This document shows, one piece after another, positions 20,056 to 22,729 of a stretch of 45,332 nt of DNA. A program made the translations under genes and the position numbers. Positions within the stretch are counted from its first letter, which is position 1. Each line of letters starts with the position of its first letter. Origin of the DNA: Prosthecobacter debontii (GTDB lineage Bacteria > Verrucomicrobiota > Verrucomicrobiia > Chthoniobacterales > Chthoniobacteraceae); NCBI GenBank assembly GCA_945861385.1, contig CAMAUI010000025.1, positions 1 through 45,332 of the forward strand, given 5' to 3'. The notes beneath the pieces were generated by a model that was given only the letters and a program-made list of their open reading frames with translations, did not search any database and was not told the DNA's origin.

Positions 20056-20133
20056 CGCGGAAGAATGAGGGATGAAGGATGAGGGATGAAAGGCCGCAGT
20101 TGCGCGGCAGAGCCCGCGCCCCCGCGCGCTGCG

Positions 20134-20379
20134 TCACTCCACCTGCACGCGGTAAAACGCCGCCGCCACGCTCGCCGCGCCGACGATGGTCAGCCTGCTC
20201 ACCGCCCCGCCGCCGCGCGTATCGAGCACGAAAGTCCCCGACCTCGCAAAGCTGCTCAGTCCGTCATTCGCCCGCGTGTCGAAGGCAAACACCGGCGACT
20301 CGCCAAACGTCGCCAGCGCATCCGATGCGCACACGAGTAGCGCAAGGAAAAGGACGGCGTTGCAGCAACGACGTTTCAT
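20134..20379 (-). CDS. small secreted protein, possible fragment of a larger one
   Basis: An 81-aa protein with a signal peptide (MKRRCCNAVLFLALLVCASDALA). The mature part, ATFGESPVFAFDTR and SGTFVLDTRGGG, has two short strand repeats ending in FDTR/LDTR; such repeats occur many times in large secreted PVC proteins, and the end, TIVGAASVAAAFYRVQVE, looks like the last strand of such a protein. It may thus be the two ends of a larger gene joined by deletion, or a small functional protein. The frame opens further upstream to 20454, but the signal peptide supports this start. Confidence 0.5.
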   Translation of the reverse strand: MKRRCCNAVLFLALLVCASDALATFGESPVFAFDTRANDGLSSFARSGTFVLDTRGGGAVSRLTIVGAASVAAAFYRVQVE

Positions 20380-20483
20380 CGGTTGTTTCCGCTGCTGTAG
20401 TTCGAGGATCGCTCGTGTCGTTTCACCGGTTCCGTGCAAACGCAAGGTTGCCACACCAAGCCCGCGCAGCTACTTTCCCCGAC

Positions 20484-20756
20484 ATGCACACGCTCACCGT
20501 CGAACTGCCCGACACGCCCGAAATCCTCGAAGGCGACGAAGTCACCATCCGCGCCCGGATGACGGGGCGCCGGCTTGTCGCCGACGCAGTGAACACGCGC
20601 CATCCGGGAGCAGCCGTGGATCGCGACTTCGCGAAACGGCGCGCGGCCTTCGACGCCTTCGTGCGCGAGTGGAGCGGCGCGGGGAAAAAGCCGATGACCG
20701 ACGCGGAAATCCGTGCCGACTACGTCGCCAGGCAACTCGCCAAGCATTGCAAGTAG
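20484..20756 (+). CDS. putative antitoxin of a PIN-type toxin-antitoxin pair
   Basis: A 90-aa protein starting MHTLTVELPDTPEILEGDEV. It is highly charged, with an N-terminal strand and a helical C-terminus (PMTDAEIRADYVARQLAKHCK), as in many VapB-like antitoxins whose C-terminus wraps the toxin. It ends 3 nt before the PIN-domain gene. I do not see a clear AbrB, RHH or HTH motif, so the DNA-binding class is open. The role comes mainly from gene order. It is transcribed divergently from the small secreted protein gene at 20134. Confidence 0.7.
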   Translation: MHTLTVELPDTPEILEGDEVTIRARMTGRRLVADAVNTRHPGAAVDRDFAKRRAAFDAFVREWSGAGKKPMTDAEIRADYVARQLAKHCK

Positions 20757-20759
20757 GCC

Positions 20760-21179
20760 GTGCAGGTTTTCATTGATACGAACATCGTCACCGACGTGTT
20801 CCTGCACCGTGACGGATGGGAGGCGTCGCAGGCGGCCATCGAGTGGTGCCTGCCGCCGGGCAGATGCGCGTGGCTGAGCTGGCCCACCGTCGCCACGCTC
20901 GCCTACCTGCTCGAATCGCGCGGCTACGGCCCGCGCGACATCGAGGCCAAAATGGAAGTCGTTCTCGGCTGGTGTTCGATTGTCGGCGCGCCGGAAGCAA
21001 CGCTCCGCACGGCGATTGATTTTCACTTCGACGACTTCGAGGACGCCATGCAGGCCGCCTTCGCCGAATCGTGCGGCGCGGAGGCGATCGTCACCCGCAA
21101 TGTCACCGACTTCGCCAGCTCGCCCGTGCCCGCGATGACGCCGGAGGATTTCCTCGCCCGGTTTGCGCGGGAGCTTTAA
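20760..21179 (+). CDS. PIN-domain toxin (VapC-like ribonuclease)
   Basis: A 139-aa PIN-domain protein, starting with GTG at 20760. PIN toxins are Mg-dependent RNases that cut tRNA or rRNA. The first acidic residue is in FIDTNIVTDVF (D6); later ones are in DDFEDAMQAAFAESCGAEAIVTRNVTDF (D95 and D117 are the best candidates). The order strand-D-TN, central helix pair, FEDA, TRN.xDF is typical. It is paired with the upstream antitoxin (3-nt gap). It ends 24 nt before the convergent RAYT gene, inside the accessory island that separates deoA from deoB. Confidence 0.85.
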   Translation: MQVFIDTNIVTDVFLHRDGWEASQAAIEWCLPPGRCAWLSWPTVATLAYLLESRGYGPRDIEAKMEVVLGWCSIVGAPEATLRTAIDFHFDDFEDAMQAAFAESCGAEAIVTRNVTDFASSPVPAMTPEDFLARFAREL

Positions 21180-21202: not shown

Positions 21203-22315
21203 TCAAGCTGCCCTTCCTTCGCGCGAAGTCGCGGAGTGTGACACAGCGCGTCCCGGCTGTGCCTCACCGCGGCCAGCAGGAGGCGCTACCGAATCGCTGC
21301 CCGACTGCGATTCGCGCGGCTGATCGTGCGCGCCACCGTCCGCGCAGCCGGGACGGGCTGTGCCACACTCAGCAGCACAGGCCGGAGGCACTGTGTCACT
21401 TTCCCAATGCGTCCACTCGCCTTCGCGCAGCCCGGCTTTCGCTGGGTTCTCCCGGATGTAATTCCGAAAATGCTCCCACTGCGCCTCGCTGCGCACCGTG
21501 TGGTCAAAATTCTCATCCATCCACACGGGCGCCTTCAATCCGTGATGCTTCACGAGCTGATGTGCCGAGTAGGATTTCCACGAGTGCAGGATGGCCGGCA
21601 AAGAATGTGACACAGCCCGTCCCGGCTGTGGCTTGGTGCGGCTAGCAGGATAAGCGTGCGAATCGGAGTCTGCTGCGATTCCGGGAGATCTTTCCTGCGC
21701 GCCACCGTCGGCACAGGCCAGAGGCACTGTGTCACTTTCTGCACAGGCGGGGCGCGCTGTGTCACCTTCTCGCGGCACCACGAGCGCGTGGACGTGATTC
21801 GGCATCACCACGAACGCATCCATCTCATACCGCTCGCCGTCGAAATACCGCAGCGCATTTGCGACGACTTCGCGGAGGGCCGGGTCGCGCAGCGCGCACG
21901 AGCCGTGGCCGGCATCGAGCCACTTTTCTTTCCGCCCCTGAAACTTGCGCCAGTACTCGCGCGCCGTCTCGGGCGTCCACGGGCGGGGATTCAGCGCCAG
22001 CCAGCGGTCGCGCTCCTCGCGCCATTGCTTGAGCAGCGATTGCGGCAGCGAATCCGCCAGCCGGAAGGTGACGAAATACATGCACCCCGCCTGCCGCCAG
22101 TGCGGGAGATTGCGGCGGGTTTTTTCGATGGTGGCGGACTTATCGAGCGGGCGGAAGGAAAGTGACACAGCCCGTCCCGGCTGTGCCTTGGCTCCATCGG
22201 CACGAGGCGTTTTCAAATTATGAGCCAACTCCGAATCGGGACGCGCTGCGTGCGGGCCACCGTCAGCACAGGCCGGAGGCACTGTGTCACTTTCTTGCTC
22301 GCTTGGTTTGCTCAC
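21203..22315 (-). CDS. REP-associated tyrosine transposase (RAYT) with three in-frame palindromic inserts
   Basis: A 370-aa frame; family members usually have about 200-230 residues. The core is a Y1 transposase: RRNLPHWRQAGCMYFVTFRL, the HUH motif in VMPNHVHALVV, LPAILHSWKSYSAHQL, PVWMDENFDHTVRSEAQWEHF and the tyrosine in NYIRENPAKAGL (codon at 21458-21460). The extra length comes from three palindromic inserts (22162-22290, 21607-21735 with a 30-nt addition, 21238-21399), each a multiple of three and read in one frame, giving related peptides SDTVPPACADGG...QPGRAVS. They lie at the N-terminus, in a loop after HUH and after the last conserved block, so catalysis may survive. The start is GTG at 22315, so the N-terminal insert would be translated; an internal start would avoid it. 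RAYTs are believed to move REP/REPIN sequences. Confidence 0.88.
   Translation of the reverse strand: MSKPSEQESDTVPPACADGGPHAARPDSELAHNLKTPRADGAKAQPGRAVSLSFRPLDKSATIEKTRRNLPHWRQAGCMYFVTFRLADSLPQSLLKQWREERDRWLALNPRPWTPETAREYWRKFQGRKEKWLDAGHGSCALRDPALREVVANALRYFDGERYEMDAFVVMPNHVHALVVPREGDTARPACAESDTVPLACADGGAQERSPGIAADSDSHAYPASRTKPQPGRAVSHSLPAILHSWKSYSAHQLVKHHGLKAPVWMDENFDHTVRSEAQWEHFRNYIRENPAKAGLREGEWTHWESDTVPPACAAECGTARPGCADGGAHDQPRESQSGSDSVAPPAGRGEAQPGRAVSHSATSREGRAA
21238..21399 (-). repeat. RAYT insert A (C-terminal copy, 162 bp)
   Basis: Bounded by GTGACACAG (21238-21246) and CTGTGTCAC (21391-21399), with further inverted matches inward (GTCCCGGCTGTG near the left end, CACAGGCCGGAGGCA near the right). 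The interior shares CGCCACCGTC and CGAATCG with the other copies. It also contains a nested inverted end-like segment, CAGCCGGGACGGGCTGTG (21345-21362), which accounts for its extra 33 bp. The length is 54 codons and no stop is read in the RAYT frame. Confidence 0.85.
21607..21735 (-). repeat. RAYT insert B (loop copy, 129 bp) plus solo end
   Basis: Bounded by GTGACACAG (21607-21615) and CTGTGTCAC (21727-21735). Left inner arm CCCGTCCCGGCTGTG, right inner arm GGCACAGGCCAGAGGCA. Exactly 43 codons. It is followed directly by a second right-hand end, GCACAGGCGGGGCGCGCTGT and GTCAC (21741-21765), which adds 30 nt (10 codons) and also keeps the frame. It lies between the HUH block and the LHSWKS helix. 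Confidence 0.87.
22162..22290 (-). repeat. RAYT insert C (N-terminal copy, 129 bp)
   Basis: Bounded by GTGACACAG (22162-22170) and CTGTGTCAC (22282-22290), with the same inner arms CCCGTCCCGGCTGTG and CACAGGCCGGAGGCA. Length equals that of insert B (43 codons), while the middle about 60 bp differ, so these are related but diverged copies, not a recent tandem duplication. It lies 25 nt after the GTG start, before the conserved RRNLPHW block. Confidence 0.87.
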
Positions 22316-22351: not shown

Positions 22352-22729
22352 TCAAAGCCCCCTCGCACACCGGAACCCATAGTAGTCGTTCCTGGACGTT
22401 GGCGTGAAGTCGTTGCGGTCGGCGACGCGGAGGCTGGTGGTGGAGTTGATCCATGAGCCGACGTGGCCGCTGAGCGCCGTGGCCGGGATGGTGTAAGTCA
22501 GCCCGCCGTCGCCGGAGATTTCGACGCCGATGGTCTGCAAATCGCCGTCGGAATCGGAGACGTTGTAGGAGATGTCCACGAGCTTCGTCCCCGGCCGCTG
22601 CGAGGCGGTGACATTCGAGACGACCGGCGCGGCGGCGAAAGTGACATCCCGATTCATCGGGATCCCGGCTGTGATGAGCGCGGCGAGCAGGAGCGAAGTG
22701 CGAAGTGGAGAGAGGGTGTGTGTCTTCAT
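22352..22729 (-). pseudogene. internally deleted FGE/sulfatase-modifying-factor protein
   Basis: A 125-aa frame that joins the two ends of a much larger secreted protein. Residues 1-90 are a signal peptide and the Ig-like start seen in secreted PVC FGE proteins (VSNVTASQRPGTKLVDISYN, DGDLQTIGVEISGDGG). At ALSGHV the sequence passes directly to GSWINSTTSLRVADRND and YYGFRCARGL, the typical last strand of an FGE/SUMF1 domain (GSW...R.A.R......GFRC.R). The 200 or more residues expected between are missing, although the frame is kept. Probably inactive, as metal and active-site residues of the domain core are lost. It lies between the RAYT gene and deoB. Confidence 0.75.

Follow-up and report, generated by a model that had tools for sequence, protein, structure and literature searches.

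A gene for a REP-associated tyrosine transposase (RAYT) from Prosthecobacter debontii carries three copies of a REPIN in a single reading frame, and whole RAYTs of other groups are nested in frame within housekeeping genes of the same genome and of its relatives. We regard the first gene as probably a REPtron, i.e. a RAYT with copies of its likely cognate REPIN, in which the in-frame pattern reflects survivorship and whose related units are nested in hosts. Weighing against this reading are the GTGA at the hairpin foot in place of the usual GTAG or GTGG, the distance of the window RAYT from its homologues in 57 relatives, the 27 of 32 elements that failed an in-frame flank test, the match of the frame to the NCBIfam RAYT model NF047646 (two stretches, 62.2 bits, under the 80-bit cut-off), the co-occurrence of RAYT and REP in one genome, and the draft state of the assembly. 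The window, by which we mean the whole 45,332-nucleotide stretch of DNA analysed, is the entire contig C25 of the source genome (G000), a 4.29 Mb draft of 174 contigs that is 93.7% complete.

The window RAYT and its REPIN copies

The general features of the gene, and of the nested RAYTs described below, are listed in the table. The protein combines an HUH motif with Tyr286, which we take to be the catalytic tyrosine of the YIxxNP motif, in a Y1-type fold. Foldseek places its AlphaFold2 model closest to 4er8, a RAYT structure that includes a REP hairpin (TM 0.55 by target length, E 1.1e-5). Association with REPs in its own genome is likewise seen, with eight half-sites in the gene and 53 genome-wide.

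Features of the window RAYT and of the RAYTs nested in other genes of the source genome
Feature	Position	Strand	Details
RAYT reading frame	21203..22315	minus	370 aa, GTG start as listed, no stop
HUH motif NHVH	21788..21799	minus	residues 173-176; N173, H174 and H176 invariant in 18 aligned sequences
Codon of Tyr286	21458..21460	minus	Y286 invariant in 18 aligned sequences
N-terminal REPIN	22162..22290		129 nt; half-sites 22162-22185 (+), 22267-22290 (-); coding or 5' untranslated
In-frame GTG from N-terminal REPIN arm	22166..22168	minus	possible alternative start, MSLSFRPLDK...
Middle REPIN and third half-site	21607..21765		159 nt, 129-nt unit; half-sites 21607-21630 (+), 21712-21735 (-), 21742-21765 (-)
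C-terminal REPIN and third half-site	21238..21399		162 nt, 129-nt unit; half-sites 21238-21261 (+), 21343-21366 (-), 21376-21399 (-)
ThrS with nested RAYT	C46 (L048)		570.7 bits, cut-off 383.65
RecG with nested RAYT	C13 (L049)		789.5 bits, cut-off 718
AlaS with nested RAYT	C149 (L050)		769.5 bits, cut-off 457.05
ClpB with nested RAYT	C17 (L054)		1251 bits, cut-off 1232.1

Recomputing the frame confirmed, as the initial annotation had claimed, that the three inserts share one reading phase (minus, offset 2) and contain no stop, giving the peptides DTVPPACADGG...QPGRAVS, DTARPACAESDTVPLACADGG...QPGRAVS and DTVPPACAAECGTARPGCADGG...QPGRAVS. The sizes it gave (129, 129 and 162 nt) hold in that every insert contains a 129-nt unit, but the middle one is longer in all than was supposed and two of the three carry an extra half-site. 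The copies are 72-73% identical in pairwise comparison. An open frame is by itself weak evidence, since the given frame also stays open in 24-40% of composition-matched shuffles of the inserts; two of the three minus-strand frames of the middle copy are open.

The middle copy is certainly internal. It follows the HUH strand and precedes the next helix, in a loop between HUH and Tyr that is predicted to be disordered (pLDDT below 50 for residues 186-228), and residues at this position are missing from all 22 aligned homologues (L053, a duplicate of L088, omitted from the alignment). The C-terminal copy is a C-terminal extension that replaces the usual C-terminus, and as it has no stop before 21203, any translation of the gene would include it. 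Low confidence also extends over nearly all of residues 1-45 and 311-370 (pLDDT below 50 for 311-344 and for most of 345-370), so that modelling, as had been suggested, puts the inserts in predicted disordered stretches outside the core. The positions first assigned to the inserts stand for the loop after the HUH motif and for the C-terminus, but the N-terminal copy may be untranslated, because the GTG that it supplies at 22168-22166 lies where homologous RAYTs start (alignment, by eye). This raises an alternative to which we give about even chances, namely that only the middle insert is coding, the outer two being ordinary REPtron flanks, with GTG 22168 as the start and a C-terminal copy that overran the stop. 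Upstream of the N-terminal copy the best open frame is a different one and the score is non-coding (-0.51), and N-terminal REPs are frequently untranslated, according to a caution in the excerpts consulted of PMC3733652; against this, a further in-frame GTG exists upstream at 22315, and the stop-free C-terminal copy remains part of any product of the gene.

In 57 relatives the search turned up no near homologue of the window RAYT (at best 58% identity, over part of the protein), a distance too great for selection on this gene to be measured. This distance, together with the frequency at which shuffled inserts stay open, would suit a decaying RAYT, an unneeded gene in which REPINs pile up and the frame is open by the luck of GC-rich sequence. 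We think this unlikely, as the HUH motif and Tyr286 are among 16 columns that do not vary across 18 aligned sequences (the window RAYT included), the core is predicted confidently by AlphaFold2 (pLDDT blocks mostly 84-96) and 370 codons run without a stop. The invariant residues and confident core also agree with the initial annotation that the inserts leave the catalytic His and Tyr intact.

The repeat is built from a 24-nt half-site, GTGRCACAGNNYNTCCNGSCTGTG, with the architecture GTGA + CACAGCC-loop-GGCTGTG, that is, an unpaired tetranucleotide GTGA (or GTGG) followed by a 7-bp hairpin; as single-stranded DNA the hairpin of the window REP is GTGACACAG. The half-site folds at -6.9 kcal/mol (z -3.3), and the three 129-nt units as single-stranded DNA fold somewhat better than shuffles (z -1.6 to -3.2). 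Hairpin half-sites in inverted pairs around a spacer (24+81+24 nt in the window units), present in many copies, bear out the earlier suggestion that the elements are REP/REPIN sequences; elsewhere in the genome there are paired copies of 58-134 nt as well as single half-sites. The tetranucleotide at the hairpin foot is GTGA in seven of the eight window half-sites and GTGG in many other genomic copies. The 53 half-sites (up to two mismatches) are spread over 25 contigs and a reversed-pattern control returns none, so the family is not due to chance. At one mismatch or fewer, 49 half-sites are found in the source genome, two in each of four relatives and none in 52 of 57 genomes; the strict pattern occurs in one of 387 sampled genomes of the phylum, the source genome itself, and in none of the 386 others. 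Nor was any half-site found within up to 1.5 kb on either side of 29 homologous RAYT hits (L062-L090). The window RAYT and this repeat family thus co-occur, and do so only in the source genome among those searched; from this co-occurrence in one genome we infer that the RAYT moves or uses this REP.

Several neighbouring frames are noted here. Adjacent plus-strand frames at 20079-20756 and 20760-21179 form a possible toxin-antitoxin pair next to the RAYT; the second starts MQVFIDTNIVTDVFL and is PIN-domain-like by eye. Upstream of the RAYT, a 125-aa frame on the minus strand (22352-22729) has the C-terminal end YYGFRCARGL and, by eye, presumably resembles a gene with a big internal loss.

Copies of the REP family in other genes

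When codon usage was tested on both flanks, five of 32 elements proved to lie in one open coding frame on both sides: the middle copy of the window RAYT and copies on contigs C76, C98, C4 and C115 (at 1201). By Pfam context the C76 copy lies between PSCyt2 and PSD1, that on C98 in an FtsX-like permease, that on C4 in a reading frame that carries HEAT repeats, and the one at C115:1201 between matches to Cas4 and Cas1. A second copy on C115 lies upstream of the Cas4 match and did not pass the flank test. We note that on C115 (L016) half-sites at 1201-1224 and 1966-1989 are inside one 676-aa Cas4-Cas1 frame.

The other 27 of the 32 elements did not pass, among them the N- and C-terminal copies in the window, which fail because their outer flank falls beyond the gene. 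At C13:16426 the best frame is the same on both sides, but there is an internal stop and a weak score on one side. For non-passing copies the best frames differ between the sides, or no class could be assigned. The proposed search of the genome for copies within genes was thus answered in part, with a few in frame and the majority failing the in-frame flank test. Together with the whole RAYTs of other groups in housekeeping genes, these few in-frame copies fit the initial suggestion that the element hides in genes.

The reading phase of the REP varies by gene, giving VTQPVPAV in C76 and C4 and SDTARPACA in C98. Such differences between genes argue against a selected peptide, and a conserved functional peptide was rejected on these grounds.

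RAYTs nested within housekeeping genes

In the source genome four RAYTs are nested in frame in other genes, those for ThrS, RecG, AlaS and ClpB (NCBIfam; table). No second copy of ThrS or AlaS was found in the assembly, nor one of RecG provided that the match on C39 is mfd, as the RecG-model matches at profile positions ~194-607, C39 included, presumably are; ClpB occurs a second time, with a lower score, on C35. The site at which ThrS is interrupted is identical in G000 and in G091, a genome from another family. An additional insert of ~50 aa with REP-like peptides is present in AlaS of G000. The RAYT on C86 (L088) was not counted as nested, having a RecF-like protein downstream in the shared frame and no host gene upstream; a RAYT frame that continues into a RecF-like protein (by eye) is seen in two genomes of the genus (L088, G000:C86; L071, G003:C622).

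Among 117 genomes of the order, at least 17 of the RAYT matches listed are in frames of 700-1600 aa, and in 13 of 15 such loci a housekeeping protein flanks the RAYT on both sides (by eye; NCBIfam for L196). NCBIfam confirms the nesting for chosen loci, the hosts in relatives being CarB, ValS, HsdR, PriA (L084, truncated by a contig end), MetH and LeuS; host names were given by eye for L184-L197 except L196, and for the ClpB relatives L064, L087 and L089. Seven candidates (L183, L188 and L198-L202) were set aside as not lying between two host halves, and some loci are doubled under two identifiers across sets (e.g. L189/L205, L192/L254, L197/L213). The CarB and ValS loci L068 and L074 show, by eye, extra in-frame REP-like peptides beside the nested RAYT. 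Nearly all of the named loci come from metagenome-assembled genomes, and there is little support from isolates: in Ereboglobus sp. PH5-10 (L243) only the downstream AlaS half is present, the upstream half lacking because the contig ends, and no flanking inverted repeat was found.

When species genomes were scanned with a query alignment built from 12 nested RAYTs, 79 loci were kept from the best 80 of 500 candidates. A single host gene lies on both sides of the RAYT in one frame in 58 of these 79, a proportion that is not a population frequency because the query consisted of nested RAYTs and the loci were selected by score from those 500. Within that same set the hosts are RecG (26), AlaS (16), MetH (9, at two sites) and seven others (DUF1156 3, PriA 2, PurH 1, IleS 1); nine loci have one host flank (six of them at contig ends) and 12 have none. 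The host references for DUF1156, PriA, PurH, IleS and MetH were drawn from the nested loci themselves, so that independent support for these hosts consists of NCBIfam matches at one or a few loci each, and for DUF1156 the scores of 168.7 and 146.7 are far under the cut-off of 1000. RAYTs in or adjoining DUF1156 (anti-phage-associated) genes were observed at L270, L275, L276, L277 and L280, in Chloroflexota, Thermodesulfobacteriota, Armatimonadota, Planctomycetota and Tectimicrobiota.

Of 31 nested loci tested, 29 have inverted repeats around the RAYT that outscore every one of 30 host-flank and 186 shuffle controls, the exceptions being L277 and L243; several of these repeats carry GTAG or GTGG at the foot. 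In most nested cases the inverted repeats delimit an element whose outer span is not divisible by three, which speaks for survivorship and not for a frame-keeping design. Empty sites occur as well: by row count, 37 of 57 relatives have an uninterrupted AlaS and 41 an uninterrupted RecG. At the recG site six aligned loci hold a RAYT and two others a short insert; the insert of L146 is similar to the REP flank of L147, that of L148 (13 aa) is not. A count of in-frame elements interrupting AlaS in ~14 relatives was dropped after alignment: among 13 aligned AlaS stretches only those of G000 and G002 hold a RAYT, and in the other inserts no REP was recognised; they look like ordinary length variation, or an antisense frame had been taken (L135, L141).

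We compared nine pairs of nested loci, picked from the tree and from an earlier pairwise run that was mostly saturated; two of the pairs share L210. The dN/dS of the nested RAYTs is 0.04-0.21 in eight pairs, the ninth being saturated (infinite dS), and that of the host parts of the same pairs is 0.05-0.56 where measurable. As far as codon comparison goes, these ratios show the nested RAYTs to be under purifying selection, and the catalytic residues are retained. In most comparisons dN/dS is higher in the REP linkers than in the RAYT, over only 16-45 linker codons and few pairs. Their silent difference is lower than that of the RAYT in all nine pairs downstream and in seven of nine upstream, and the downstream result makes the DNA, not the peptide, look conserved. 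From such alignments the linkers look constrained as DNA and the RAYT as protein.

These linkers bear on a further alternative, that REP-encoded peptides or mRNA hairpins serve the transposase in self-recognition or autoregulation, as the initial annotation had offered. There are three copies in one gene, and the folding of the 129-nt units as single-stranded DNA would be in keeping with it; but the insert peptides are predicted to be disordered, other genes carry the REP in other phases and hence encode other peptides, and the linkers of nested RAYTs combine dN/dS above that of the RAYT with a lower silent difference downstream. We consider it improbable. Least credible of all is an assembly artefact: the assembly is a draft and repeats are liable to collapse or false joins, but the family is spread over many contigs, its three window copies differ from each other, and many independent assemblies show nested RAYTs at identical sites in host genes.

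In a tree of 87 RAYT domains the host label changes at least 19 times, or at least 14 times when standalone rows are left out. The RAYTs in ThrS and AlaS of G000 form a clade with that in ThrS of G091 (support 100/97). Monophyly is rejected for the 31 RecG rows (p-AU 3.2e-5), which makes more than one entry into the same RecG site probable. A model of a RecG-RAYT protein (939 aa, 34 sequences) shows both RecG halves and the RAYT as folded, with linkers at residues 356-418 and 566-608 of pLDDT below 50, and its best Foldseek match is RecG 1gm5. Residues of RecG motifs such as DEQHKFGV and GDVGxGKT are invariant in the modelled sequence, in 25 other nested sequences and in eight uninterrupted ones. 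No Hint or intein domain was found in the nested RecG (L049) or AlaS (L050) at Pfam E <= 1e-4.

Probable survivorship of in-frame insertions and comparison with known systems

The explanation we favour for the REPtron in the window begins with two REPIN copies at the ends of the gene, the usual place of RAYT-flanking elements, that would have been absorbed into the frame, and a third that would have entered the loop separating the HUH strand from the part that bears the Tyr. TnpA_REP cuts and rejoins single-stranded REP DNA in vitro (PMC8266576, in the part consulted). If the HUH transposase here likewise cuts and rejoins REPs as single-stranded DNA, landings may be widespread, and those in proteins would persist only if they keep the frame, bring in no stop and fall in a loop or linker that tolerates them. 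Only tolerated in-frame landings would then survive, which makes the in-frame pattern one of survivorship and not of design, and the inserts in the window RAYT would be neutral. The same tolerance, taken further, would allow whole REP-RAYT-REP units of related groups to enter housekeeping genes and to change hosts repeatedly. With whole units in frame in hosts, the host protein presumably includes the transposase as a folded domain held on disordered linkers that the REPs encode.

We lean, with less confidence than for the REPtron itself, towards a putative class of protein-compatible mobile elements in Verrucomicrobiota and beyond, in which REP-RAYT-REP units live and move in frame with an active, tethered transposase. 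On balance their hosts would include RecG, AlaS, ThrS, MetH, PriA, ClpB, CarB, ValS and LeuS, in an intein-like arrangement without splicing, and a lost frame would rather likely cost the cell the enzyme. The window gene would, by the same leaning, show this tolerance one level lower, with a REPIN inside the transposase.

Inteins are in-frame inserts with a mobility enzyme, found in conserved housekeeping proteins at repeated sites. Nested RAYTs are alike in having an in-frame mobility enzyme, but without a Hint domain in the nested RecG and AlaS no splicing is expected.

REPs that flank and also sit inside tnpA_REP genes have been described for subclass 2.4, with the frame kept and generally between HUH and Y (Quentin et al. 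2018, PMC6006769), and according to the same source, as excerpted, they occupy a peripheral variable region. The window RAYT similarly has REPs flanking and inside the gene, in frame and between HUH and Y, and its NHVH agrees with the NH[IFV]H motif of that subclass, but WQ and YIxNNP are not present, their places being taken by WM (VWMDENFDH) and YIRENP. Lacking these two signatures it is not filed as 2.4 and is said only to behave similarly. In-frame REPs and REP dimers are also reported within many genes in the sections seen of PMC3733652, most intragenic GTAG repeats being those of a verrucomicrobium, Opitutus terrae. REPs within frames, as here, are common to that report, and its excerpts do not describe a whole transposase in a host gene. 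The novelty that the initial annotation saw in a RAYT with in-frame elements was accordingly overstated in view of these two papers (PMC6006769, PMC3733652): in-frame REPs inside a RAYT gene are already known. Whole REP-RAYT-REP units in housekeeping genes were not found described, the search having covered open-licence PMC titles and abstract starts among the matches listed.

As outlined in the portions used of PMC3116915 and PMC8266576, REPINs and REPtrons likewise combine REP pairs with a RAYT, with a GTAG-type guide at the hairpin foot; most window half-sites differ in having GTGA as the guide, and some copies are inside genes. The palindromic elements of Rickettsia (PMC10969869, PMC3733652), compared here by description only from partial texts, are also in frame in unrelated genes. 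In the same extracts of PMC3733652 the Rickettsia repeats are a type not tied to transposase genes, whereas the elements here are tied to RAYTs and some carry one.

The long-term maintenance of RAYTs in genomes is posed as an open question in the part cited of PMC6006769. In-frame nesting in an indispensable gene offers a testable answer for one branch, in that loss of frame costs the host the enzyme, and a transposase domain tolerated within another protein is a route to new multidomain proteins. According to the same portion of PMC6006769, a few unexpectedly long proteins were discarded there, taken for gene fusions or annotation errors; any nested RAYTs in the genomes of that study could be among them, and long 'fusion' RAYTs deserve keeping in surveys and not filtering. 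One further long frame, of 717 aa (L188, G069:C330), holds two seemingly identical RAYTs with REP linkers, through tandem duplication or an assembly effect.
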